A DNA stretch of 64,000 bases. It comes from Malachius bipustulatus. Its lineage: Eukaryota > Arthropoda > Insecta > Coleoptera > Melyridae. The translations under genes and the position numbers were made by a program. Below are positions 2,340 through 59,147 of this stretch, in pieces. The notes below the pieces were generated by a model. The model was not told the origin of the DNA. It saw nothing but the letters and a program-made list of their open reading frames with translations, and searched no databases. Within the stretch, counting starts at the first letter, position 1. Every line of letters begins with the position of its first letter. The DNA lies in the NCBI GenBank assembly GCA_910589415.1, contig OU342633.1, positions 54,988,404-55,052,403 of the forward strand. Reading direction: 5' to 3'.

Positions 2340-2410
2340 ATATATATATATATAAATATATATATAAATATATATATAAATATATATATAAATATATATA
2401 TATATAAATA
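2340..2410. repeat. (TATATAAA)-type microsatellite bordering the ribozyme array
   Basis: Alternating TA with regularly spaced AAA interruptions. The ribozyme array starts directly at its right edge, and a similar short tract (6801-6822) borders the array on the other side. This suggests the array arose in, or inserted into, one AT microsatellite. Confidence 0.85.
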
Positions 2411-2534
2411 TACAAATATGAAAGTTTTATTAGAGCCGTGATTATAAATCATGAAAATATAATTTTCGGGCATTTAAAGCTCATTAATAAAGTGCTTTCA
2501 ATGGCAGACAGCACACGCAACCATCTAGAGCCCC

Positions 2535-2595
2535 CTCGAAGCTGCAGACGGACCGTTTCGGTCTTTTTATGACCTCATCAGTACAGCATATCGAG
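2535..2595 (-). ncRNA. Hammerhead ribozyme copy 1 (type I)
   Basis: This is the leftmost copy, read on the minus strand. All core residues and all three stems are present, as described for the copy at 4040-4100. An extra C lies beside the outer end of stem I and does not touch the core. Confidence 0.88.
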
Positions 2596-2975
2596 ATGGA
2601 ATCCAGAGGCTACGATGCTGTCCGCCATCAAAAGCTAGGCCTTTGTATCCACTCAGTTCCACGGAACCAAGTGACTTACAACGCCTTTCGCCATCTAACA
2701 ATGGAGGCAAGAACTACCAGCAATGTGTGCCAGCTTGCGACCATCAGAGACGGCGGCCCGGTGCAGTTTTATATGCTTTTAGGCTTCACCTCTCCTCGGC
2801 CAGTGCTGACCACTGCCGGAAGATGCCATTCCATTCGCCCATAAGTAATTAATACAAATATGAAAGTTTTATTAGAGCCGTGATTATAAATCATGAAAAT
2901 ATAATTTTCGGGCATTTAAAGCTCATTAATAAAGTGCTTTCAATGGCAGACAGCACACGCAACCATCTAGAGCCC

Positions 2976-3036
2976 CTCGAAGCTGCAGACGGACCGTTTC
3001 GGTCTTTTTATGACCTCATCAGTACAGCATATCGAG
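2976..3036 (-). ncRNA. Hammerhead ribozyme copy 2 (type I)
   Basis: Minus-strand copy, 61 nt, identical in core and stems to the copy at 4040-4100. Confidence 0.9.
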
Positions 3037-3416
3037 ATGGAATCCAGAGGCTACGATGCTGTCCGCCATCAAAAGCTAGGCCTTTGTATCCACTCAGTTC
3101 CACGGAACCAAGTGACTTACAACGCCTTTCGCCATCTAACAATGGAGGCAAGAACTACCAGCAATGTGTGCCAGCTTGCGACCATCAGAGACGGCGGCCC
3201 GGTGCAGTTTTATATGCTTTTAGGCTTCACCTCTCCTCGGCCAGTGCTGACCACTGCCGGAAGATGCCATTCCATTCGCCCATAAGTAATTAATACAAAT
3301 ATGAAAGTTTTATTAGAGCCGTGATTATAAATCATGAAAATATAATTTTCGGGCATTTAAAGCTCATTAATAAAGTGCTTTCAATGGCAGACAGCACACG
3401 CAACCATCTAGAGCCC

Positions 3417-3477
3417 CTCGAAGCTGCAGACGGACCGTTTCGGTCTTTTTATGACCTCATCAGTACAGCATATCGAG
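3417..3477 (-). ncRNA. Hammerhead ribozyme copy 3 (type I)
   Basis: Minus-strand copy, 61 nt, 441 bp from copy 2 and identical to it. Confidence 0.9.
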
Positions 3478-3857
3478 ATGGAATCCAGAGGCTACGATGC
3501 TGTCCGCCATCAAAAGCTAGGCCTTTGTATCCACTCAGTTCCACGGAACCAAGTGACTTACAACGCCTTTCGCCATCTAACAATGGAGGCAAGAACTACC
3601 AGCAATGTGTGCCAGCTTGCGACCATCAGAGACGGCGGCCCGGTGCAGTTTTATATGCTTTTAGGCTTCACCTCTCCTCGGCCAGTGCTGACCACTGCCG
3701 GAAGATGCCATTCCATTCGCCCATAAGTAATTAATACAAATATGAAAGTTTTATTAGAGCCGTGATTATAAATCATGAAAATATAATTTTCGGGCATTTA
3801 AAGCTCATTAATAAAGTGCTTTCAATGGCAGACAGCACACGCAACCATCTAGAGCCC

Positions 3858-3913
3858 CTCGAAGCTGCAGACGGACCGTTTCGGTCTTTTTATGACCTCA
3901 TCAGTACAGCATA
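3858..3913 (-). ncRNA. Hammerhead ribozyme copy 4, truncated in stem I by the inversion
   Basis: The core, stems II and III and the inner six pairs of stem I are intact, but the array inversion point at 3913 removes the outer 5' strand of stem I and most of the internal loop next to it. Loss of the peripheral stem I element probably weakens the loop-loop contact that hammerheads need at physiological magnesium. Confidence 0.8.
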
Positions 3914-4039
3914 GTAGGTAGTTCTTGCCTCCATTGTTAGATGGCGAAAGGCGTTGTAAGTCACTTGGTTCCGTGGAACTGAGTGGATACAAAGGCCTAG
4001 CTTTTGATGGCGGACAGCATCGTAGCCTCTGGATTCCAT

Positions 4040-4100
4040 CTCGATATGCTGTACTGATGAGGTCATAAAAAGACCGAAACGGTCCGTCTGCAGCTTCGAG
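4040..4100 (+). ncRNA. Hammerhead ribozyme copy 5 (type I), reference copy
   Basis: A self-cleaving RNA. Stem I pairs 4040-4044 (CTCGA) with 4096-4100 (TCGAG), then, across a TAT/T internal loop, 4048-4053 (GCTGTA) with 4089-4094 (TGCAGC). The core CTGATGA is 4054-4060. Stem II is GGTC/GACC (4061-4064 with 4072-4075) with loop ATAAAAA. GAA is 4076-4078. Stem III is only three pairs, ACG with CGT (4079-4081 with 4085-4087), closed by a 3-nt loop. The unpaired C at 4088 completes the GUC cleavage triplet, so cutting is expected between 4088 and 4089. Every invariant core position of the family is present. Stem I is the open helix, hence type I. The tiny stem III resembles that of hammerheads in Penelope-like elements and animal retrozymes. 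Confidence 0.92.
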
Positions 4101-4302
4101 GGGCTCTAGATGGTTGCGTGTGCTGTCTGCCATTGAAAGCACTTTATTAATGAGCTTTAAATGCCCGAAAATTATATTTTCATGATTTATAATCACGGCT
4201 CTAATAAAACTTTCATATTTGTATTAATTACTTATGGGCGAATGGAATGGCATCTTCCGGCAGTGGTCAGCACTGGCCGAGGAGAGGTGAAGCCTAAAAG
4301 CA

Positions 4303-4309
4303 TATAAAA
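4303..4309 (+). promoter_or_regulatory. TATA-like box in each 441-bp unit (example)
   Basis: TATAAAA occurs 178 bp before the next ribozyme, in the ribozyme's sense direction, and recurs in every unit that includes this part (on the minus strand in the left half). It could let the array be transcribed by RNA polymerase II on its own. This is inferred from sequence only. Confidence 0.35.
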
Positions 4310-4480
4310 CTGCACCGGGCCGCCGTCTCTGATGGTCGCAAGCTGGCACACATTGCTGGTAGTTCTTGCCTCCATTGTTAGATGGCGAAAGGCGTTGTAA
4401 GTCACTTGGTTCCGTGGAACTGAGTGGATACAAAGGCCTAGCTTTTGATGGCGGACAGCATCGTAGCCTCTGGATTCCAT

Positions 4481-4541
4481 CTCGATATGCTGTACTGATG
4501 AGGTCATAAAAAGACCGAAACGGTCCGTCTGCAGCTTCGAG
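4481..4541 (+). ncRNA. Hammerhead ribozyme copy 6 (type I)
   Basis: Plus-strand copy identical to 4040-4100. Predicted cleavage is after position 4529. Confidence 0.9.
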
Positions 4542-4643
4542 GGGCTCTAGATGGTTGCGTGTGCTGTCTGCCATTGAAAGCACTTTATTAATGAGCTTTA
4601 AATGCCCGAAAATTATATTTTCATGATTTATAATCACGGCTCT

Positions 4644-4649
4644 AATAAA
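4644..4649 (+). promoter_or_regulatory. AATAAA in each 441-bp unit (example)
   Basis: This polyadenylation-signal word lies about 115 nt after the ribozyme cleavage site in the same direction and recurs in each complete unit. The region is AT-rich, so chance is possible. Confidence 0.3.
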
Positions 4650-4921
4650 ACTTTCATATTTGTATTAATTACTTATGGGCGAATGGAATGGCATCTTCCG
4701 GCAGTGGTCAGCACTGGCCGAGGAGAGGTGAAGCCTAAAAGCATATAAAACTGCACCGGGCCGCCGTCTCTGATGGTCGCAAGCTGGCACACATTGCTGG
4801 TAGTTCTTGCCTCCATTGTTAGATGGCGAAAGGCGTTGTAAGTCACTTGGTTCCGTGGAACTGAGTGGATACAAAGGCCTAGCTTTTGATGGCGGACAGC
4901 ATCGTAGCCTCTGGATTCCAT

Positions 4922-4982
4922 CTCGATATGCTGTACTGATGAGGTCATAAAAAGACCGAAACGGTCCGTCTGCAGCTTCGAG
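4922..4982 (+). ncRNA. Hammerhead ribozyme copy 7 (type I)
   Basis: Plus-strand copy identical to 4040-4100. Cleavage here and at copy 6 would release a 441-nt monomer. Confidence 0.9.
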
Positions 4983-5362
4983 GGGCTCTAGATGGTTGCG
5001 TGTGCTGTCTGCCATTGAAAGCACTTTATTAATGAGCTTTAAATGCCCGAAAATTATATTTTCATGATTTATAATCACGGCTCTAATAAAACTTTCATAT
5101 TTGTATTAATTACTTATGGGCGAATGGAATGGCATCTTCCGGCAGTGGTCAGCACTGGCCGAGGAGAGGTGAAGCCTAAAAGCATATAAAACTGCACCGG
5201 GCCGCCGTCTCTGATGGTCGCAAGCTGGCACACATTGCTGGTAGTTCTTGCCTCCATTGTTAGATGGCGAAAGGCGTTGTAAGTCACTTGGTTCCGTGGA
5301 ACTGAGGGGATACAAAGGCCTAGCTTTTGATGGCGGACAGCATCGTAGCCTCTGGATTCCAT

Positions 5363-5423
5363 CTCGATATGCTGTACTGATGAGGTCATAAAAAGACCGA
5401 AACGGTCCGTCTGCAGCTTCGAG
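5363..5423 (+). ncRNA. Hammerhead ribozyme copy 8 (type I)
   Basis: Plus-strand copy identical to 4040-4100. This unit has a T-to-G change about 55 bp upstream, outside the ribozyme. Confidence 0.9.
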
Positions 5424-5803
5424 GGGCTCTAGATGGTTGCGTGTGCTGTCTGCCATTGAAAGCACTTTATTAATGAGCTTTAAATGCCCGAAAATTATAT
5501 TTTCATGATTTATAATCACGGCTCTAATAAAACTTTCATATTTGTATTAATTACTTATGGGCGAATGGAATGGCATCTTCCGGCAGTGGTCAGCACTGGC
5601 CGAGGAGAGGTGAAGCCTAAAAGCATATAAAACTGCACCGGGCCGCCGTCTCTGATGGTCGCAAGCTGGCACACATTGCTGGTAGTTCTTGCCTCCATTG
5701 TTAGATGGCGAAAGGCGTTGTAAGTCACTTGGTTCCGTGGAACTGAGTGGATACAAAGGCCTAGCTTTTGATGGCGGACAGCATCGTAGCCTCTGGATTC
5801 CAT

Positions 5804-5864
5804 CTCGATATGCTGTACTGATGAGGTCATAAAAAGACCGAAACGGTCCGTCTGCAGCTTCGAG
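5804..5864 (+). ncRNA. Hammerhead ribozyme copy 9 (type I)
   Basis: Plus-strand copy identical to 4040-4100. About 40 bp downstream the unit carries a 9-bp tandem duplication (GAAAGCAGTGAAAGCAC), making the distance to the next copy 450 bp. Confidence 0.9.
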
Positions 5865-6253
5865 GGGCTCTAGATGGTTGCGTGTGCTGTCTGCCATTGA
5901 AAGCAGTGAAAGCACTTTATTAATGAGCTTTAAATGCCCGAAAATTATATTTTCATGATTTATAATCACGGCTCTAATAAAACTTTCATATTTGTATTAA
6001 TTACTTATGGGCGAATGGAATGGCATCTTCCGGCAGTGGTCAGCACTGGCCGAGGAGAGGTGAAGCCTAAAAGCATATAAAACTGCACCGGGCCGCCGTC
6101 TCTGATGGTCGCAAGCTGGCACACATTGCTGGTAGTTCTTGCCTCCATTGTTAGATGGCGAAAGGCGTTGTAAGTCACTTGGTTCCGTGGAACTGAGTGG
6201 ATACAAAGGCCTAGCTTTTGATGGCGGACAGCATCGTAGCCTCTGGATTCCAT

Positions 6254-6314
6254 CTCGATATGCTGTACTGATGAGGTCATAAAAAGACCGAAACGGTCCG
6301 TCTGCAGCTTCGAG
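6254..6314 (+). ncRNA. Hammerhead ribozyme copy 10 (type I)
   Basis: Plus-strand copy identical to 4040-4100. Confidence 0.9.
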
Positions 6315-6694
6315 GGGCTCTAGATGGTTGCGTGTGCTGTCTGCCATTGAAAGCACTTTATTAATGAGCTTTAAATGCCCGAAAATTATATTTTCATGAT
6401 TTATAATCACGGCTCTAATAAAACTTTCATATTTGTATTAATTACTTATGGGCGAATGGAATGGCATCTTCCGGCAGTGGTCAGCACTGGCCGAGGAGAG
6501 GTGAAGCCTAAAAGCATATAAAACTGCACCGGGCCGCCGTCTCTGATGGTCGCAAGCTGGCACACATTGCTGGTAGTTCTTGCCTCCATTGTTAGATGGC
6601 GAAAGGCGTTGTAAGTCACTTGGTTCCGTGGAACTGAGTGGATACAAAGGCCTAGCTTTTGATGGCGGACAGCATCGTAGCCTCTGGATTCCAT

Positions 6695-6755
6695 CTCGAT
6701 ATGCTGTACTGATGAGGTCATAAAAAGACCGAAACGGTCCGTCTGCAGCTTCGAG
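6695..6755 (+). ncRNA. Hammerhead ribozyme copy 11 (type I)
   Basis: The last, complete plus-strand copy. Its unit stops 47 bp further on at 6802, where AT microsatellite DNA begins. Confidence 0.9.
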
Positions 6756-7033
6756 GGGCTCTAGATGGTTGCGTGTGCTGTCTGCCATTGAAAGCACTTT
6801 ATATAAATATATATATATATATCGTGGGCAGGTGAATTTTGGAAAACCACTTTTTCGTAATCTGGGGGTCATGATCGGTGGACATTTGATGAGTTTGGGT
6901 GATTTTTGGAAAGTGATGTCGTCCTCAATAGTGTATTTTTTTGTTAAAAAATACACTAAAATGCAATTAGAATGTAAATATTTATGTAGAAAGAAAGAGC
7001 GTGCATAAAAGTCCCAATAAAAAATCTACGTAC

Positions 7034-19623: not shown

Positions 19624-20066
19624 TCAGTCCATGTGGATTGGCAGGACACTGATCTTGGTGACACTTCGCTTGAAGATCCCCATTCTCGTCTTCAATGTAA
19701 CTACACGTACGATGTCGTCCTTTCCAGGATGAACTTCGGTGATTCTTCCTAGAATCCATTGTTGTGGAGGCAGGTTTTCATTTCGTAGTAGAACCAAGGC
19801 GCCGACTTGAACGTTTTTGTTGTGATTCGCCTGCCACTTGCTCCTTGCCTGAAGTGAGGTGAGGTACTCTGCAGACCAGCGTTGCCAAAAGTGTTGAACT
19901 AATTGTTGTAGTCGTTCATACAGGACCAATTTGCCAGGTAGTTCTTCGGAAACGTTAACTTGTGGTAGAGCAGTTAACACGTCGCCAATTAAAAAGTGAC
20001 TAGGAGTAAGAGGTAATAGATCGTTTGGATCGTTGGAGAGTGGAGTAAGTGGCCTGGAGTTTAGGA
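19624..20066 (-). pseudogene. BEL/Pao integrase C-terminal part, out of frame with gag-pol
   Basis: From about 20066 down, the minus strand continues the integrase in a different frame: LNSRPLTPLSNDPNDLLPLT, then the C-terminal domain with FWQRWSAEYL and GALVLLRNENLPPQQWILGRI, ending at 19624. Comparison with the second BEL-type integrase in this window (63312-64000) shows the break is a loss of about five bases just before LNSRP. The stop after the shift falls at 20000, so integrase loses its DNA-binding C-terminal domain. Confidence 0.85.
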
Positions 20067-23000
20067 TCAATTTGACATAAAACTGTATATAAATGTTCAA
20101 AGGTTAAATGTGCATTCCCTAAAACTCGTACCAAATGAAATTTGGCTGATTTCACTGCCGCCTCCCAAAGGCCTCCAAAATTAGGTGAAATCGGTGGTAT
20201 AAAGTGCCAATTTATTGACTGTTGAGTCAAGTAATTCGAAATCTTACCAGACCTTGTAGATTCCTGTATTAATTTAAATGTGTTTTTGAGTTCGTTATTT
20301 GCCCCAATAAAATTTTTCCCATTGTCTGTGTATATGTTTGCGCAAATACCCCTTCTTGAGGTAAATCGTTTCAAAGCATTTAGAAAAGATTCAGTGCTTA
20401 GGTCGTTTGCAAGCTCAATGTGAACTGCGTGAGTAGTAAAACAAATAAAAATACAAAGGTAAGTTTTTACTAACCTCCTATTTCTTAATTTACCATCCTT
20501 TACTAAGAGAGGTCCAGCAAAATCACATCCGACATTAAGGAACGGACGGTTGGGTGTGACTCGTGCTCCGGGCAAATCTCCCATCATTGGTGTCACAAAA
20601 GTAGGTTTAACTTTAAAACAAGTTATGCAATGATGTAAAATTGATTTTATGGAGTTTTTACCATGTATTATCCAGTATTTGGACCTCAAAGAATTTAGGA
20701 CGGCTTGTGTACCTGCATGAAATAATCTAATGTGCTCATGTGAAATCAAAAGTTTTGTAAACTTGTGATTGGGTGGCAATATTATTGGGTGTTTGGTATC
20801 AGTTGACAGTTTCGACAATTCTAATCTTCCTCCTACACGAATTAAACCTTTATCGTCTAAGAATGCATTAAGTTGATACAGTTTACTGTTCTTGTCTACT
20901 TGTTTGTTTGAGGAAAGATCCCTAATTTCATTACGAAAATGTGAATGCTGTACCAATTTTAAAAGAAAATTCGTGGCATCATTTAGTTCGCTAATTGCTA
21001 AATTTGTAGTATTCTCAATTCGTGTCGTTTTTAAATTATTTAAAAAGCGAAGAACGTAAGCGAAAACGCGTATTAATTTGCCGAAGTCTGAAAACTTGTC
21101 AAAAATGGATTGGTCATGATAAACCACCATAGTAGGTAATGAAACCTTAACGTTTTGTCGTTTAGTAATTATCGTATCGTTTCTATCTAAATTGACAGAG
21201 TAGGTTAAAGTATCAGTTTTAGGATCCCAAAAGAGACCTAAAGTCTTACAAGTTTTGTCTGTAGTATTCATATTATATTGTAATAATTCACCCTTATTAG
21301 AATGTTCTAATAAGTCGGGTTCATTAGAGTAAAATTTTCTCAAAGGAAAACCGTATTCATTCAAAATTTGGACAATTTCGTTTTTTAATTTGATTGCCTC
21401 CTTAATAGAATCGGCACCCGTAATTAAATCGTCCACATAAAAAGAATTAGTAATAGTTTTACTGGCTTGTGGAAATTTATTCATATTGTCAATTGCCGTT
21501 TGATTCAAAGATCTTATGGCGAGAAACGACGCCGGTGCGGTGCCGTAAGTGACTGTATTTAAAACATAATGTTTCAAGTCACCAGTATTTTCAGAACGCC
21601 AAACAATACGTTGTAAGTGTTTGTCTGGATCCTTTACCTTCACTTGTCTGTACATTTTTTCCACGTCAGCTGTAAAAACTACGTTGTGAGTGCGAAAATT
21701 TAAAAGAATTTCAAACAATTCTGGTTGTAAAGTCGGTCCGGTCATCAATACGTCATTGAGCGCTAAACCCGTTTTTGTTTTCGCGGACGCGTCATAGACC
21801 ACCCTCAGTTTGGTAGTGGTACTATCCGCCTTCACCACCCCGTGATGAGGCAAGTAATAATTCAAAATTGAATCATGTTCCTCCGGAGATATCCGAGTCA
21901 TATGCCCTAGATTCTCGTATTCTGTCATGAAATTCACGTAGTCGCGTTTTAATTCAACATTTTTGTCCAATCTTTTCTCTAAATTGTAAAAACGCTTTAT
22001 CGCCGTGTTAAGTGAATCTCCTAAATTGTTTACATTTTCCCTAAATGGTAATGAGACTTCTATTCGACCCCTGTCATCTCGCGTATAATTTTCTAAAAAA
22101 TGTTGCTCGCACTTGACATCTTCTAGACTTGCTTCCTGTATAAATTCGTAATTTTCTGTAGCCCAAAACTTTTCCATCTGATTATGTAAATCATTATTGT
22201 TAATTGACAAATTGCAAACTGTTCGGTTGTGAGTTTCAGAATTATCTGAAATCAAAGTGCCCGAGAAAACCCAACCCAGTTTTGTTTTTTGTAGTATAGG
22301 AAGGTTTCTTCCAAATTTAATTTGTCCCACACATAATATTTCAAAGAAAATATTCGCTCCTAATAAAACGTCCACCTGGCCTGGTGTGTAAAATCGTTCG
22401 TCTGCAAGTTGAATATTGGGAGGTAAATTTAAAATCGATGCATCAAATGTAAATTGCGGTAGGTCGTCGGTTATTTTATTTACCAGCAAAAACGAGTCCT
22501 TGACCCTATATTTCTGGCTTGCTGAGAGAACGGTAGCATCGAGCATTTTAGTAACGTTGCTAACTGCATTGTTTATTCCTACCACAGGTGTCTCGATATT
22601 TCGAAGTTTCAACCCCAGTTTACGAGCAAAGGAACTCGTAACAAAATTGCTCTGACTCGCACTGTCTAGTAACGCGCGACATTCTACAGGGTTGCCACGT
22701 GAGTCCAATATTTTAATAATTGCCGTAGCCAAAATTACTTGTGATCTTCGTTTAGCTGACAAACAATGCATTGTTAAATTAGGAGTAGTAGTTACATTTA
22801 CATCAGAATAATTATTATGGTCGTGCGTATTTTCTTCGTTTTCAGAAATAGGACCTTGTTGAAGGGTTTCATTTTTGTTAAAGTTATTATTATTTTTGGG
22901 AACTCTTTCGTTAAACAGGTGAAGCAAAAAGTGGTGTTTCCGATTGCAGTGTTTGCATCTCGGAGAATTGCATTCGTTATTAGTATGATTAGGTCGTAAA

Positions 23001-24172
23001 CAATTTAGACACAATTTGTGTGTTTTAATTTGCGAGTAAAGTTCTGAAGATGACATTCGATGTATCTTGTTGCAATTAAAATTGAAATGATTCTGTTTAC
23101 AAAAAGCACATGTTAGTTTTGTAAATGTAGCATGATTTAAAGTTCGGTTTTCTTTAGTATAATTAACATGTGTACTTCTTGAATGTTTGTTTTTGTCCTC
23201 AATTGTTTCTAGGAATTGACAACGTTTGGAAATGAAATCTGTCAGTTGTGTTAGTTTAGGAAAATCAACCGTCTCTCTGTTACAAAATTCTTCCCACTCC
23301 CTTGTAGTAATGGGGTCTAATTTTGCAGTTAATATATGGATTAGTAATGTATCCCAAGTACTAGTAGGTTGATTCATGACTGTCAAGGCCTTTATATTTT
23401 TATTGAAAGTGTCTAGTAAGTGTCTTAGTTGTGAGAAAGATTCGTTTTTCATTGTCTGTAATTCAAATAAAGCCTTAACGTGAGTGTGTACGATTAATCG
23501 TTTGTTTTCATATCTTTCTCGTAACATGTCCCAAGCAATTTCGTAGTTTTCGTTTGAAACTTCGATTGCTTGAATTAATTGAGACGCATCGCCTTTCAAA
23601 CAAGTTCTCAAATAGCAAAATTTTTGTACGTTAGAGAGGTGACAATTTGTGTGTACGAGTGAACTATAAATGTCAGAAAATGTCATCCAATGGCTATAAG
23701 ATCCGTGAAATTCTGGCAAGTTAATTGGTGGAAGTTTTAGAACACTATGTGCAGCCATGTCGTTAGACTGCGATTGTTTATTTTGTTGTGAACTAGTATT
23801 ATTGTCGTTGGTTGTAGTTTCGTGAGTAGGAACCACCTCTAACTCTTTCACACTTTGTTTAGATTCTGAGTTTAAAAATTCGTTTTGATATTGCGCTAGT
23901 AAATATTTTGCTTTACCAATGAGTTTAAAGTATGAATTTTCAAAGGAATCTCTCTCTTCGTCTTGGATAATAAATCCAGATGCGACCTCAATTTCATTCT
24001 GAATGCTTTCAAATGATTCCAAGAGCGGTTCTTTCTTTTCTAATCTAAATTCTAATTCCTGATAATTGCCCTTTATTGGATCGAAATCATTCAAAAAAGT
24101 AGAAAATTTAGTAAGTGAACCTTTTACAAGACCTCGTTTATAATTGAGTTCAGTAATGACTTCTTTCGACAT
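20000..24172 (-). pseudogene. BEL/Pao gag-pol polyprotein with internal deletion and terminal frameshift
   Basis: An open frame of 1390 codons starting MSKEVITELNYKRGL. Gag occupies about 1-340; Cys/His knuckles lie at about 355-412 (CAFCKQNHF, CLNCLRPNH, CKHCNRKHH); an aspartic protease has ALLDSASQSNF (active Asp about 503); reverse transcriptase spans about 750-960 with FTADVEKMY and FYVDDLITG (YVDD about 912-915). After residue about 1005 (coordinate about 21157) the sequence jumps from the end of the RT-linked region straight to the end of the RNase H/connection region, so roughly 400 residues usual in this family are missing, in frame. Integrase follows: a zinc-binding HHCITC segment, CDFAGPL, YTDNGKNF and GGLWEAAVKSAK, giving the DDE triad. 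Translation then runs out of frame near 20066. The copy lacks RNase H and the integrase end. Confidence 0.9.
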
Positions 24173-46947: not shown

Positions 46948-48810
46948 TTATTTATAGAACTTGGCAAATTGAGGAAGAATGCAATCCCTAATATCTTTAC
47001 TGGTCCTATACAAATACTCGCTTATATATAAGGTGTTTATGCAATAAACCCCTTTCTTTGCTAAATCAAAGTACACCGTAAAATCCTTCACACTCCTCGG
47101 CTCCAACAAACAATGGGTAATGTGTACATTATCGCCGAGTTGATTAGAATCTATCACTAACCCACCTCCCGCCTCTATAACTCTAATTATGGGGTCCCGT
47201 TTTGTAGCCACCACGATCGCCCGCATGTCGTTGAAAGCCCCGTAGCCCCTCTTCGTGATCTCCTTCCTCCACCAATGAATTGCCCGCAACCTCTGCTCTG
47301 AATCCGTGTCATCCGCGTTCGGAATCCTCGAGTACGACTTGGGATTCCCAAACTCGAAATCCTCTTCCAGTAAAAATGATCCGTTCTTCAGACTTTTCTC
47401 TATGTAAGAACTGTGCAAGATCCATTTCCCGGCGGCCATGCAGGCGAGAGTCTTCTCGTTTCTCGCCGGTTTCGGACAGATCAGATGCTTGCACGACGGG
47501 TCGTAGTTGGAAAGCTCGGACACCTTCCCGTCGAGGGCTTCGATCTTCCGGATTATCTCGGTTCTGGTTTCTTCACTGAACCCCGAGATCATAAACGATT
47601 TCACCGAGAAAGTCTCCTCGCTCCGGTTCACATCCTCCGACTCGCTGTTCTTGCCGCCGTAATCCCAGCCGACGGTGAAAGCCTGAGAGTCTTTCATTTC
47701 AGGATTGACAACCTGAGCAGGGATCGTCATCTCAAAGTTCCTACTGATCCTAGACCTGGCCTTGGCCTTCTCGGTACTCGCCGTCAACATATCCTGAAGC
47801 TTCTGGATCTTTTCCTCCATCAGTTTCTTTTCAGGAGTCTCGACGTTAGATTGTTGATTAACCCCGGGGGTTTTACAATAATTATTTATGTTATGGATGC
47901 TTGTTTGTGATGTACTCGGTTCGTTTAGTAACTCTTCAATAGAGGAAACAGAATCATTGAAATTCGGTTGACCTATTTGAGTAATCGCAGACTCAGAATT
48001 CTCCTTTTCTTCGTTATCACCAGCACCAGTGCTAGCACTACAACTAGCACCGAGCACTTTCTCCCGGAATTTTCTTTTCAACTCCGAGAGAGGGGTGCTC
48101 ACACGCCTCAGCTTGGGCGGGTTATAATCGGGGAACTGGTTAATATATCGGACCATCTTCTTCCTCAAACTCGGGGACGGGTCCGGCCTGATGAAAGCGC
48201 CGTATGGCGTCTGAGGAGTCTGAACGTCGCACCACGGTTTCTGAACGGGGGTCTTGGGAGTCCCCAGCATGTGATTCTGTCGCACCTCTTCCATTATTTT
48301 ACTGACCGGAGTCACCTGACTACAGACGTCTCCAGGAGTACCTTTGGCGATCGCCGTTTTGATCTTATTGATAGGCGTCTGACAGACGACGCTCTTCTTT
48401 TCGGCCGGTTTGTCCAATTTTTTTGAAGAGACAGTCTTGGTGTCGGTGTCGCTCAAGAGCGATTCGTTCAATAAGAACCCGGGCAACGGGAGTTTCTTAT
48501 CTTTGGCGGCGCAGGCCAGGAGCCAGTCTTTGGTCAGGACGGGTATGCCCCATTTCCGGGCCGCCTGGTACTTCCGTCCTTCCGGCTCGGCGCAGATCAG
48601 ATGGGTGCAACCTTGGACGTTCTTGTCGGGCGCGTCGATCCGGGCGAACTGGTCCTGCGCCGTGCCGCCGAGGTGGTTTATTAACGTGCTAAGGTACAGT
48701 CGTTCGGCGCCCGAGTAGCCGCTGATCGTCATCACGCAACCGTCGAAAATGTCCGACGGCACAATGCTGTTTATCGGTCGATGGTAGTACTGGATCTCTT
48801 TTCGTTGGCC
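46948..48810 (-). CDS. TopBP1: TopBP1/Mus101 homologue, second coding exon (C-terminal half)
   Basis: This 621-codon exon starts at the acceptor CAG before 48810 in phase 0 and ends with the stop at 46948. It gives residues 659-1278. It begins with the end of BRCT4 (YYHRPI), then BRCT5 at about 677-766 (CVMTISGYSG, LGGTAQDQF, THLICAEP, VLTKDWLLAC). A long Ser/Thr-Pro-rich linker follows, with TPKTP, QTPQTPYG and VSTPLSELKRKF. A WDYGG segment at about 1040, just before an acidic stretch, sits where the ATR-activating domain with its essential Trp is found in TopBP1. BRCT7 is about 1058-1146 and BRCT8 about 1180-1269, the pair that in the family binds phosphorylated BACH1/FANCJ or TopBP1 itself. 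BRCT6 is not evident. Nuclear protein of replication start and the ATR checkpoint. Confidence 0.92.
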   Translation of the reverse strand, partial: GQRKEIQYYHRPINSIVPSDIFDGCVMTISGYSGAERLYLSTLINHLGGTAQDQFARIDAPDKNVQGCTHLICAEPEGRKYQAARKWGIPVLTKDWLLACAAKDKKLPLPGFLLNESLLSDTDTKTVSSKKLDKPAEKKSVVCQTPINKIKTAIAKGTPGDVCSQVTPVSKIMEEVRQNHMLGTPKTPVQKPWCDVQTPQTPYGAFIRPDPSPSLRKKMVRYINQFPDYNPPKLRRVSTPLSELKRKFREKVLGASCSASTGAGDNEEKENSESAITQIGQPNFNDSVSSIEELLNEPSTSQTSIHNINNYCKTPGVNQQSNVETPEKKLMEEKIQKLQDMLTASTEKAKARSRISRNFEMTIPAQVVNPEMKDSQAFTVGWDYGGKNSESEDVNRSEETFSVKSFMISGFSEETRTEIIRKIEALDGKVSELSNYDPSCKHLICPKPARNEKTLACMAAGKWILHSSYIEKSLKNGSFLLEEDFEFGNPKSYSRIPNADDTDSEQRLRAIHWWRKEITKRGYGAFNDMRAIVVATKRDPIIRVIEAGGGLVIDSNQLGDNVHITHCLLEPRSVKDFTVYFDLAKKGVYCINTLYISEYLYRTSKDIRDCILPQFAKFYK

Positions 48811-48873
48811 CTGAAAATAAAGTAAGTAAGAACTGTGTATGTTTTTTTTTTAATTCTGCGTAATAAACTGCAT

Positions 48874-49189
48874 AATAGCCCCCAATTCCTAACTGCATAA
48901 TTTTCTACTCGAGTTTACCTTTTTTTTTATTATTGACCAGTAAGTGCAAAAAATCGCATCTTTTTTGTTTTTCTGCTTCTAAAAGAAAAACTGATACAGC
49001 AATGTAAATGGTCCTAATGTCTTAGTTCTCTACAATTCGTCCAATGGGACTATTTACACTGCTCCATCAGTTTTTCTTTTATAAACAAAAAACCAAAAAG
49101 AGCGATTTTTTTGTACTAAAGTTAATATAAAAAAGAAAATGGTAAGCTCGAGTAGAAAACTGATGTGCAGTTAGGATCTGAGGGCTATT
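48874..49189. mobile_element. Small foldback element in the TopBP1 intron
   Basis: Inverted arms: AATAGCCCCC... with ...GGGCTATT at the ends, CTACTCGAGTTTACC with GGTAAGCTCGAGTAG, and AGAAAAACTGATACAGC with GCTCCATCAGTTTTTCTTTT. It occupies most of the 431-bp intron (48811-49241). Confidence 0.65.
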
Positions 49190-49241
49190 CCGTGTGTAAT
49201 GGCACCGGCGGTTAAGTGACTTTTTACACCTGCAAACTTAC

Positions 49242-51215
49242 CTCGTTGCAACAATCGTTAACGTAGAGCTCCGTTATGCACTTGTTGTGGGGCACATCGA
49301 AATCTGGAGTGTTCCGGACCGGAACGACAGCGAAATCGAAGTCACGTTCGTTTGACATCTCATGGAGAAAAGCGATTCCGCCCAAGCATTCGATCTCGTT
49401 TTTGAGACAATAGTATTTCTCGTCGCTGCAATCGAAAAAGACAAATCTCAAACCTTCGAAAATCTTGTTCACCTCCTGCGACCTAAATTGGCTTTGCATC
49501 GTTTCTTCATTTTGCAATGTCTTTGATTCTTCGTTTGCTTCATTATTAGTTTCACAGCGACTTTCTCCTCCAACCGCTACGTCAATGACCCCCTTAGAAT
49601 TTGTCTCGACGTTCCTCAGCAACTGCTCAAGCGTATCTTCTTGCAACTGCTGACTTGGCCTGAAGTACTGCTGGACGATGTCTAAATCGTCATTCTCCTT
49701 ATCGTCTTCGGCGACCGGTTCCACTATGCTGTCAATCGGTAATTTCTTAACGATTTTACTGGACCGTAGCAAGTTGACGGCGTTCTTACTTAACGGGGAT
49801 CCGATTGCGGGTTTCTCGAAATCGAAATCGATTTTAACGATGTACTGCTCCTCGCAGACGGCGCGTCCATTCTCGATGCTCTCGAGCAGCCATCCGGAAG
49901 AAACGATCAGACGGCACTGATGGTCGACTTTGAGCAGTTGCTGCACTTCCGGCGATCGCACGTCCCCGATTATAATGTGCGTCACTCGATCGTTCAGGTC
50001 GGTGAAACGGGTCGCCCCGCTCAGATTCAACACTTTATTGATCTTCTCCTTTTGGTCCGATTCGAAGCCAGCCAGGTAGACACAGCAGTTATCCAGGAAC
50101 TGTCCGGCCGCTTTGACTTTCCTCATGTCAATCGATTCGATTATATCATCGCTGAAGTTGATCTTGCGTTTCAGGCTCGCTTTGGGTTCAAATAATATCG
50201 AAGTGACTTGGTTAGCAGTCTCATCGAGCGTTGTTCTATCGACATTGACTGTATAAGAGCAAGGGTTAATGGCGCTTATTATTGAGAAATTTGGGTCGAT
50301 TTTACTGTTATCCTTGGTCGGGGTTGAAGCCGCATGCTCGAAGGGGTATAAGTTACAGGGCAGAGCGTACCCCTTCTTGAGACTATCATAGACCCATTGC
50401 AAGGTAACGCATTGTATGTGAGAGGTGTTTTTAGCGGCTCGGAATTTTTCGCTACCCATTGAAGCTACCTCTTTACAGACAAGGACATCGGTGGAAGCAA
50501 GGCTCAATTTTCCGGTGAAATTACCCCCGTTCTCGTTGATCAATTTCATGAGTCTTTGTCGTTCGTTCGCAGAGACACCGGTCGCGCTGACGGTTAATTT
50601 GTGAAATGGCGGGCATTTGAAGTTGTCGAATTGGGGGTCATCGCACCTGATATTGCGGCTTTGGCTGGCTTCCAGGACTGCGTCCACCCAATCGGGCTTC
50701 ATTATCTTCACCCCTGATTCAGAGGCGAGTATGTATTTTTCAGTGTTGACTCGATCAGCTATGAGATGGGTGTTACTGGAGGATAGTGCTTCATTATAAA
50801 ACCCCCCCATTAACTGCACTTTTTGCTTAATCTCAAGCTTCCGTAGCTTGGGCAAATGCGAGCTGGTTACTACAACGTCATACATGGCAACGTTGTAGAT
50901 TGGCCAGTGGAACTTGGGGATCGATCTACCCTCCATTAGACATATCGATAGGCACCAGGGACCTACAATTCTGCCTTGGTCCTTTGCTTTCAGGGCTTCG
51001 AAATATTTGCCTTCAAATGCTTCAAAGACCACGAAATCGGTTTCGCTCAATTCCAGCTCCTCGCAGAGGCTTTCTTTGACCCAGGTGACGTTTGGGATGA
51101 CTTGTTTGCATGCCTGGAACGCCTGGGTTGTAATGTCTGCAACTTCCGACTCGTTGTTGTAATTGCCTGGTAGGACGAAGTACACGCGGATTTGGTCCAT
51201 GTCTTCCGCCAGCAT
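49242..51215 (-). CDS. TopBP1: TopBP1/Mus101 homologue, first coding exon (N-terminal half)
   Basis: 658 codons from ATG 51215 to a phase-0 donor (GAG then GTAAGT) at 49242. The exon begins right at an acceptor (TTTTGTTACAG), so the ATG is the first base of the exon and a non-coding 5' exon is implied. I chose this Met over one 13 codons upstream because that one lies in the intron. The modules are BRCT0 (about 10-95), BRCT1 (about 105-190: GGFYNEALSSSNTHLIAD, PDWVDAV), BRCT2 (about 200-285: TLQWVYDSLKKG), BRCT3 (about 372-458: VTHIIIGDV, SSGWLLESI) and most of BRCT4 (about 585-672). In the family BRCT0-2 bind phosphorylated RAD9 and Treslin/TICRR. Total protein length is 1278, close to insect Mus101. 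Confidence 0.93.
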
Positions 51216-51259
51216 CTGTAACAAAACAGATGAAACCTTGTAGTTGTTTACCATAACTA

Positions 51260-57064: not shown

Positions 57065-57345
57065 GTAATATGATTTTTAATATACAGTATATAATATGCA
57101 TTTCTCGTAACAACACTTAAATAAGAATAATATTAATAATTATTTTTAAAATCTTGCAAAATATCGGTGGTTATGCTGCATGACCACTATGCCATCATAT
57201 ATATGGCCACAATGCCTAATAATGATATAGGTTACTGAATATGTATATTTTTCTATTATTTTATTTTTCTCTCTATAATTTATTTCCATATTTATAAACG
57301 ATAAATTATCTTAGCTACCTATATAATTGCAAAAAAAAATTTCAG
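57065..57345 (+). other. Predicted 5' UTR intron of the piggyBac transposase gene
   Basis: CAG/GTAATATG at 57062-57072 and TTTCAG at 57340-57345, five bases before the ATG, make a plausible intron in the leader. Confidence 0.45.
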
Positions 57346-57350
57346 ATAAT

Positions 57351-59147
57351 ATGGCATCTTACGAAACTGATCAAGCACGCCTTCAGAGATTATGGGATCA
57401 AATTGAGGAGATTCCAAGTGGTCCAGAATCTGAAGATGAGGAAGAAAATGTAGAAGATATTGGAGAAATAGAAGGAAACTACATAGTAGGTCCTGACAAC
57501 GTATTGATACGAACTATTAACGATCCCATAGAAAAAATTCAAGAACACAATGAAGAAGAAGTTTTTGATGTTCACGTTGACATTGATGATATTGAACACG
57601 GCATTGACTCTGATGATGACAACATTCCTCTCGCTACAATTATGTACCAGTCAGGCATCTTCACTTGGTCAAAAATTCATACCAAAAGAGCAAATTATGA
57701 ATTTAAAGAACCCGTTGGCCCTACAATAGAATCGGAAGAGCCAATTGATACATTTTTTGCCCTTTTCCCAGAAGATCTCATTGAGCGTTTGGTATATGAA
57801 ACCAATCTGTACAGCGTTCAAGAGACAGTTGGTGTAAATAACAATGCCACTAATGGAGATGAAATGAAAACCTTTCTTGGGATTAATATTTTAATGGGAA
57901 TAAAGAAACTGCCCTATTATAGAGATTATTGGTCTTCAAACCCAGTAATGAGAGATAAATATATATCTTCATCAATGTCTGTAAATAGATTTGGATGGTT
58001 TTTGTCTCATTTACATATAAACGACAATAATGCTATGCCTGCACGAAATACACCAAATTTTGATAAATTATTTAAACTCCGACCACTTCTCGATACTCTA
58101 TCCAGAACCTTCAAGAGCTGCTATTTTCCTGGACAATATCAGTCAATTGACGAATCTATGATTCCCTTCAAGGGAAGAAGCAGTCTCAAACAATATATGC
58201 CAGATAAACCTGTAAAACGTGGCTATAAAGTATGGGTTCGTGCTGACTCTTCTGGATATGTCGTCGAGTTCCAAATATATGAGGGGAAAAAGGATAATAT
58301 CAAGGAAGCAAATCTAGGATCCAGAGTTATTAAAGATTTGACACGTGAATTAGTGGACAAAAATTATACAGTCTACTTCGACAACTATTTTAGCTCTGTA
58401 GAGCTAATGATTTATCTTCAGGAAAACAAAATATGGGCGGCTGCAACAACCAGAAATAATAGGAAACATTTCCCAAAAGACCTAATTGCAGAAAACAAAA
58501 AAGGACCTCGAGGATTCTCTGAGTGGAGGTCAACTAAAACTGGAATAGTTGCAGTAAAGTGGAAGGACAGAAAAGATATATATTTTCTATCCAATTTTCA
58601 CGATCCTAACGATGTAACAACCGTCGACAGAAAAGAAAAAGATGGATCATTTTCTGCAATTGAATGTCCACAGCTAGTAAGAGAATACAATAAGCATATG
58701 GGCTATGTAGATAAAGCAGATATGCTAAAATCCATTTATGCTATAGACCGCAAATCAAGGAAATGGTGGCACAGAATATTTTTCCATATGCTGGATACCA
58801 CTGTCGTCAATGCTTTTGTATTGTTCACTAAGCTGTCTGAAGGAAAATCGATGACTTTAAAGGAGTTTAAAATAGCCATTGCTGTAGCTTTGATTGACAC
58901 TTCACCTAAAGAACGAGGAGGAAGAAAGTCAAAGCAAAAAGAAGTAAACTCTTTTAAAATCAATGTCTTACAAGAACGACGTTTTAAAAATGCGGACCAT
59001 ATGCCAGTTAGATCCACTTCTAGACGCTGTGGGTTATGTTCAACTAAAGAAGAAGTGCATCGCTCCAAGTGGGCTTGTTCTGTTTGTGAGATAGCTCTGT
59101 GCCTTAATGACAATAAAAATTGTTTCTTAAAATTTCATAGGAAATAG
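57351..59147 (+). CDS. piggyBac-like transposase
   Basis: 598 codons from the ATG at 57351 (MASYETDQARLQRLW). An upstream in-frame ATG at 57327 lies in the predicted leader intron. The N-terminus is acidic (about 24-90). The DDE_Tnp_1_7 core follows, with the three family aspartates at D267 (QSIDESMIPFKGR), D344 (VYFDNYFSS) and D454 (GYVDKADML), and the usual KWWHRIFFHMLDTTVVNAF segment. A Cys/His-rich C-terminus (CGLC...CSVC...CLN...CFLKFH, 560-598) is the zinc-binding domain that reads the element's ends. Family role: cut-and-paste transposition at TTAA with seamless excision. No internal stop or frameshift is seen, so it may be active. Nuclear. Confidence 0.95.
   Translation: MASYETDQARLQRLWDQIEEIPSGPESEDEEENVEDIGEIEGNYIVGPDNVLIRTINDPIEKIQEHNEEEVFDVHVDIDDIEHGIDSDDDNIPLATIMYQSGIFTWSKIHTKRANYEFKEPVGPTIESEEPIDTFFALFPEDLIERLVYETNLYSVQETVGVNNNATNGDEMKTFLGINILMGIKKLPYYRDYWSSNPVMRDKYISSSMSVNRFGWFLSHLHINDNNAMPARNTPNFDKLFKLRPLLDTLSRTFKSCYFPGQYQSIDESMIPFKGRSSLKQYMPDKPVKRGYKVWVRADSSGYVVEFQIYEGKKDNIKEANLGSRVIKDLTRELVDKNYTVYFDNYFSSVELMIYLQENKIWAAATTRNNRKHFPKDLIAENKKGPRGFSEWRSTKTGIVAVKWKDRKDIYFLSNFHDPNDVTTVDRKEKDGSFSAIECPQLVREYNKHMGYVDKADMLKSIYAIDRKSRKWWHRIFFHMLDTTVVNAFVLFTKLSEGKSMTLKEFKIAIAVALIDTSPKERGGRKSKQKEVNSFKINVLQERRFKNADHMPVRSTSRRCGLCSTKEEVHRSKWACSVCEIALCLNDNKNCFLKFHRK

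Follow-up and report, generated by a model that had tools for sequence, protein, structure and literature searches.

How does a tandem array of hammerhead-bearing units come to lie in a beetle genome as two inverted arms that meet at their 5' ends? The question is raised by a 64,000-nucleotide stretch of Malachius bipustulatus (contig OU342633.1, positions 54,988,404 to 55,052,403; hereafter the window), in which positions 2410-6802 are occupied by 441-bp units with hammerhead ribozyme motifs. We consider it probable that this array is one insertion of a non-autonomous, noncoding metazoan retrozyme with a 441-nt monomer, here named RZ1, copied by Penelope machinery from both sides of a DNA break. 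The tandem repeat itself, proposed by a first-pass annotation, was confirmed by Tandem Repeats Finder, with a period of 441 bp and 99% matches over 2410-3913 and 3917-6802, and by length holds about 10 units, 3.41 on the minus strand followed by 6.54 on the plus strand. When the monomer is numbered from the predicted ribozyme cut, the minus arm (2410-3913) has its outer, sense 3' end at position 136 (a 'long' end) and its inner 5' end at 398, the plus arm (3917-6802) begins inside at 270 and ends outside at 59 (a 'short' end), and a 3-nt filler (3914-3916) forms the central 5'-to-5' junction. The left flank (2340-2409) is an (AT)n-rich microsatellite, the presumed target, and the right flank (6803-6842) a microsatellite of the same kind that runs into a host-repeat motif at 6824-6842.

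The eleven hammerheads of the first-pass annotation were all recovered with a loose hammerhead pattern, four on the minus strand (2547-3904) and seven on the plus strand (4054-6743), where shuffled sequences lead one to expect 0.07, and all share the same 35-nt core. On the minus strand they lie at 2535-2595 (core 2547-2581), 2976-3036 (2988-3022), 3417-3477 (3429-3463) and 3858-3913 (3870-3904), and on the plus strand at 4040-4100 (4054-4088, with the predicted cut after 4088), 4481-4541 (4495-4529), 4922-4982 (4936-4970), 5363-5423 (5377-5411), 5804-5864 (5818-5852), 6254-6314 (6268-6302) and 6695-6755 (6709-6743). Stem II (GGTC/GACC), the GAA, the GUC triplet and a stem I of 6 + 5 bp across a TAT/T loop read as had been described, and the count of ten complete copies and one truncated is right for the ribozymes, since the innermost copy of the minus arm (3858-3913) begins only at unit position 398 and is therefore missing the outer stem I 5' strand where it meets the central junction. 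Comparison with Rfam, the check suggested for these sites, gave a divided answer: no match was obtained in the window at gathering thresholds, but the whole RF02275 model (Hammerhead_HH9) aligned below threshold at 11/11 sites (23.4-25.3 bits, E 0.004-0.017, against a cut-off of 52).

Covariation was assessed in 23 hammerheads of this genome (10 of the RZ1 family and 13 others), hand-chosen from 45 distinct pattern-matched sequences by leaving out within-frame duplicates, matches unlike hammerheads, and copies that carry indels or whose core is broken. A four-helix model paired in 95.2% of cells, compared with 39.8% at most for slid versions, in a set that is biased towards pairing because degenerate copies were left out. 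Double-sided changes occur at 11 of the 18 base pairs of the model, and the covariation score of 0.529, against 0.261 in shuffles, was reached by none of 500 of them. The lowest-energy fold of the isolated ribozyme differs from the hammerhead (-19.1 versus -15.2 kcal/mol), which speaks against easy folding in a model that has no tertiary contacts; the 441-nt monomer as a whole is strongly self-paired (z of -7.2). Motif, below-threshold Rfam matches and covariation together support the earlier reading of these sites as predicted type I self-cleaving ribozymes in a retrozyme-like tandem array. Each full unit also holds an antisense frame of 137 amino acids (window 2880-3293 and equivalents), which had no Pfam match, to reverse transcriptase (RT) and GIY-YIG domains included, and is probably due to chance.

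The layout of the window array is that of a family. Across the 544-Mb genome, the hammerhead core has 283 matches with up to three mismatches, compared with none for a control, and from the first 100 of these listed we drew a sample, rather than the full set of insertions, of 45 RZ1 loci with 70 arms; in a separate genome search, 39 of 481 candidates were scored. The loci are dispersed and contain up to 25.3 units (median 1.38). A minus-strand RZ1 of about one unit, with its outer end at 59, lies about 13.5 kb to the left of the window array (L061, G000:C4:54977065-54977502). All 22 adjacent two-arm loci examined are minus/plus, that is, joined 5' to 5', and the sole plus/minus neighbour (L063) has its two parts 193 bp apart, the second being an 81% match to another hammerhead type. 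The inner 5' ends of the arms are scattered. The outer, sense 3' ends fall 59-140 nt downstream of the predicted cut in 65/70 arms, in clusters at 59-62, 71, 89-91, 98-108, 129-137 and 139-140, the five outlying ends (29, 215, 374, 415 and 441) belonging to L049, L058, L062, L063 and L068. With classes whose limits were chosen after the ends had been seen (long, 129-141; short, 55-110), one long and one short end were paired in 19 of the 21 classifiable loci (permutation p 0.0003); one exception is short/short and the other long/long, and the twenty-second pair, in L049, is unclassifiable.

These regularities bear on two rival explanations. An ordinary satellite, grown and inverted by DNA recombination with no reverse transcription, would be expected to show random ends and the plus/minus order as often as the minus/plus one; in L032 and L035 the repeated occurrence of the same variants in units that are not neighbors does suggest some exchange between units, but outer ends at few fixed positions over many scattered loci, together with the 22/22 orientation, refute this explanation unless the sampling is biased, and we give it very little weight. 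Genome assembly is known to be error-prone where identical repeats lie in inverted order, so that the inversion might be an artefact; however, the 22 loci differ in their inner breakpoints and fillers and have unequal arms, and the layout is kept in diverged copies (L057, L060 and L066, of 87-96% identity), which makes such an origin hardly credible. Inversion at the DNA level and misassembly were rejected on account of the breakpoints and the fixed ends.

The flanks point to the kind of DNA into which RZ1 was inserted. (TA)4 is present in 43 of the 66 flanks that adjoin RZ1 3' ends, compared with 9/24 beside 5' ends and 1/269 control windows, and the edge motif of one host repeat lies within 120 bp in 25/45 loci. 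This motif occurs 3,314 times genome-wide (1719 + 1595 matches) and is adjoined by (TA)4 or more in eight of ten host-repeat copies, taken in listed order and one of them partly N; in one of the ten (L137) both edge motifs are present with AT sequence alone between them, as in an empty site. In the window, the host repeat with its (AT)n edge is also found at 1530-2340 and 6803-6960. The RZ1 ends themselves overlap the target in a primer-like manner: at many of them a target-like A or T replaces the base of the RNA (133G>A, 99T>A, 138A>T), which is what mismatched annealing of an AT primer would produce. The TAT sites at 145, 215 and 398 are unused as ends, except for one interrupted block ending at 215 (L068).

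Concerning the template, the cut site lies within 60 of 65 arms, and 20 arms exceed 581 nt, more than one lap, which implies an RNA that had stayed uncut or been ligated again. In L039, eight variants are found in both arms wherever these cover them; of the eight, 92T>G and 265T>C were seen at none of the other listed loci and 207T>C at a single one (L067), a comparison that leaves aside L062 with its 39 variants. Arm lengths within a locus are correlated (rho 0.57, permutation p 0.003). Eleven of the 22 central junctions have no filler, and eight of these show 2-4 nt of microhomology (binomial p 4e-5 under a simple model); the fillers in L036 and L050, read by eye, resemble copied retrozyme sequence. 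Run-off at the ribozyme cut was rejected as a general rule because the inner end is exactly position 1 in just 3/65 arms and because the L069/L070 arm continues for three more matching bases, although both arms of L055 fit it.

The inner ends are also where fold-back, or self-priming, has to be weighed, an explanation in which RT makes one arm and the cDNA then folds back and copies itself into the inverted arm, a route suggested for rotifer Penelope elements with an antisense template (PMC3846280, in the part drawn on here). In its favor, the inner ends of paired arms are closer than in permuted pairs (mean distance 77.8 versus 109.4 nt, p 0.009). Even so, fold-back should repeat the outer end of the first arm, yet the end classes differ in 19/21 pairs, and most paired inner breakpoints are tens of nucleotides or more apart, with the microhomology or filler mentioned above, so that we consider it unlikely for RZ1.

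A match to the layout of RZ1 came from the Penelope-like elements (PLEs) of the same genome, for which a GIY-YIG search was made and 150 of 775 candidates were scored. Many matches lie in open frames of 823-855 amino acids, with a tandem spacing of about 3.3 kb, and one frame carries both RVT_1 and GIY-YIG; the named relatives of that frame among 120 listed are uncharacterised or reverse-transcriptase proteins, from ladybirds, Diabrotica and Callosobruchus. One contig (C11, 84,009 bases) consists largely of Penelope-like units, six minus followed by 18 plus, at a spacing of about 3,327 bp. Opposite-strand PLE neighbors within 8 kb were minus/plus in 23/25 cases. In families A, B and C, a hammerhead motif was present upstream in 15/16 edge regions (A 7/8, B 4/4, C 4/4) and an element end in 14/16; counted from the cut site as placed by us, the ends fall at 73-86 and 126 nt (A), 76 nt (B), and 58 and about 93 nt (C). 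When the outermost copies of an array are taken as its two ends, all seven two-ended PLEs (two of family A, two of C and three of D) have one short and one long end, approximately 35-50 nt apart. The (AT)n of the host repeat used by the retrozymes also hosts 6/14 ends of families A-C, none of them from C, and 2/6 ends of D; L113, L119, L129 and L130 gave no usable PLE end. Inverted head-to-head copies with a 3' tail on one side are thus common to RZ1 and the PLEs, and because geometry, long/short asymmetry and part of the (AT)n targets are shared and the end positions are similar, Penelope machinery is our preferred candidate for the copying of RZ1.

A mover of another kind, the RT of a long interspersed nuclear element (LINE), has also to be considered, given that target-primed reverse transcription by elements lacking long terminal repeats (LTRs) also gives 5' truncations and inversions, and a LINE-like open reading frame (ORF), recognized by eye, lies inside L068. 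LINEs are also left open as candidates in the part of PMC7229834 used here. We nevertheless find this rather improbable, since a comparison that covered the PLEs of this genome showed agreement with RZ1 in geometry, end positions, asymmetry and some of the targets, and no poly(A)-like 3' end was seen among the RZ1 flanks inspected.

In the mechanism that we infer for Penelope-driven insertion, RZ1 units would be transcribed, probably from a TATA-containing block, and the type I hammerhead would cut the transcript to monomers that are then ligated into circles. A co-resident Penelope-like RT/GIY-YIG protein would bind the RNA 60-140 nt downstream of the cut and open an AT-rich target, here the (AT)n microsatellite in the host repeat, so that both 3' break ends could prime, their AT-rich termini annealing to UUAU-like sites, one 'short' and the other 'long'. 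Rolling-circle reverse transcription would then produce antisense multimers inward from both sides, and the joining of the cDNA ends by microhomology or short filler would leave a 5'-to-5' array with two differing 3' ends outside. More tentatively, and with somewhat less than even confidence, we envisage two RTs of one Penelope dimer working on a single hammerhead-made circle. One would load at the short site and its partner at the long one, the two ends of one break serving as primers, and the enzymes would follow each other round the circle and build both arms at once. Autonomous PLEs would copy their own circles likewise, a habit that would account for the head-to-head order of their tandem arrays, and retrozymes would be parasites of the process.

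Several observations weigh against Penelope-driven copying of circles. (TA)4 is absent from 23/66 RZ1 3'-end flanks, and two of the 25 opposite-strand PLE neighbors are plus/minus, although these may be two families because their search scores differ. Rfam finds no hammerhead in PLE unit L106, where a minimal one is recognized by pattern alone, and a comparison of RZ1 with one PLE unit showed no clear similarity in sequence. The variants in non-adjacent units (293G>T with 295T>A in three units and 411del in two in L032; 153A>G in two in L035) are unexpected from one clean circle. For the Penelope protein, the RT start is described as having no homology to the cut DNA, unlike the annealing proposed here, and the hammerhead as dispensable in vitro, ribozyme mutants being without effect on insertion, unlike the circles proposed here (PMC11167929, in the portion consulted). 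Finally, enzyme, RNA circle and cleavage are all deduced from DNA alone.

RZ1 has a distant relative in this genome, a second retrozyme family of 424 nt named RZ2, which was found, together with further hammerheads, among loci L076-L085 and L087-L095. Alignment of the two covers the hammerhead and, approximately 210 nt past the cut, a block containing TATAAAAC and CACCGGG, with a score reached in 0/300 simple shuffles; one RZ1 example of the block lies at 4289-4364 on the plus strand of the window, with TATAAAAC at about 4303 (monomer 215), and it is this conserved TATA-containing block that may act as promoter. RZ2 ends fall at 50-58 and at 92-96 or 123, and the minus/plus order holds in all three two-arm loci whose ends could be used (96/58, 95/58 and 50/123), the second end of a fourth (L082) being unusable. 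Further hammerheads in the same group of loci have a stem I loop of the same TAT/T type; L063 has another type. Elsewhere in the window, a retroelement frame with DUF1759 and RVT_1, which we take to be BEL/Pao-like, occupies 20000-24172, a transposase with DDE_Tnp_1_7, presumably piggyBac-like, 57327-59147, and a TopBP1-like BRCT gene 46948-51254; the best named relatives of this gene come from beetles, in keeping with a beetle host. A PDB search with part of the BEL/Pao frame gave no match and has no bearing on RZ1.

The first-pass annotation had suggested that the inverted layout may be undescribed. For retrozymes this stands as far as we searched, no description of two-armed insertions having been found in the open-access literature, which leaves out most subscription papers, and the layout being present in 22/22 two-arm loci; for PLEs it does not, as head-to-head pseudo-LTRs (pLTRs) with an optional 3' tail are known (PMC3846280, in part). 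Within the same limits of search, the RZ1 insertion layout and its match to co-resident PLEs appear to be new. Their interest is in naming a candidate autonomous partner for animal retrozymes, to which no known motif points according to the part of PMC7761336 cited, and in addressing the role of hammerheads in Penelope elements; both questions are left open in the portions of the literature cited here. In this one genome, young-looking retrozyme copies and PLEs with open frames have the insertion geometry, the start zone and some of their targets in common, and the proposed mechanism, if true, would explain the inverted head-to-head PLE arrays with a one-sided tail.

Among known systems, the metazoan non-LTR retrozymes are the nearest relatives. 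They have been reported to form circles, and PLEs have been suggested as the elements that mobilize them (Cervera and de la Pena 2020, PMC7229834), and in the sections of that paper drawn on they are dispersed repeats of 150-450 bp with RNAs of 170-400 nt, from dimers to large multimers, and a GC content below 50% (below 45% in a figure legend), compared with 46% in RZ1 and 39% in RZ2. Like them, RZ1 carries a type I hammerhead in every one of its short tandem repeats and occurs as dimers to multimers, and no LTR features or coding capacity are described for them there; its 441-nt unit is at or above their sizes, and two-armed 5'-to-5' insertions with fixed long and short ends go unmentioned in those sections. 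RZ1 combines a type I core and a bipartite stem I that could contact loop II with short dispersed tandem repeats in which no coding capacity was found, and, judged by its sequence, it is a new member of this group. Plant LTR retrozymes differ in carrying type III hammerheads in LTRs with a primer-binding site and a polypurine tract, in contrast to the type I hammerhead in every RZ1 unit. In the twin priming of L1, an inverted insertion arises when one RNA is copied from two primers, and its second arm starts at a variable internal site, whereas both RZ1 arms start in one zone and can run for many laps.

In the way they insert, PLEs are the closest parallel. Inverted pLTRs placed head to head, one of which bears a 31-bp tail, have been described together with insertion into simple AT-rich targets and the self-priming proposal (PMC3846280, in part), and RZ1 shares the head-to-head inversion, an optional 3' tail of 30-40 nt on one side and the AT-rich targets. 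In AT-rich DNA the Penelope protein cleaves the two strands and extends each of them, and it begins reverse transcription within the RNA, 111-118 nt into the ORF, with the ribozyme cut 26 nt into the ORF (PMC11167929, in the portion consulted); by our arithmetic, this places the start 85-92 nt past the cut, an internal start like that proposed for RZ1. PLEs encode RT and GIY-YIG and have minimal hammerheads, unlike RZ1, which has a fuller hammerhead and no recognized protein. RZ1 would thus work like a PLE but is not one, since its 137-amino-acid frame holds neither RT nor GIY-YIG.

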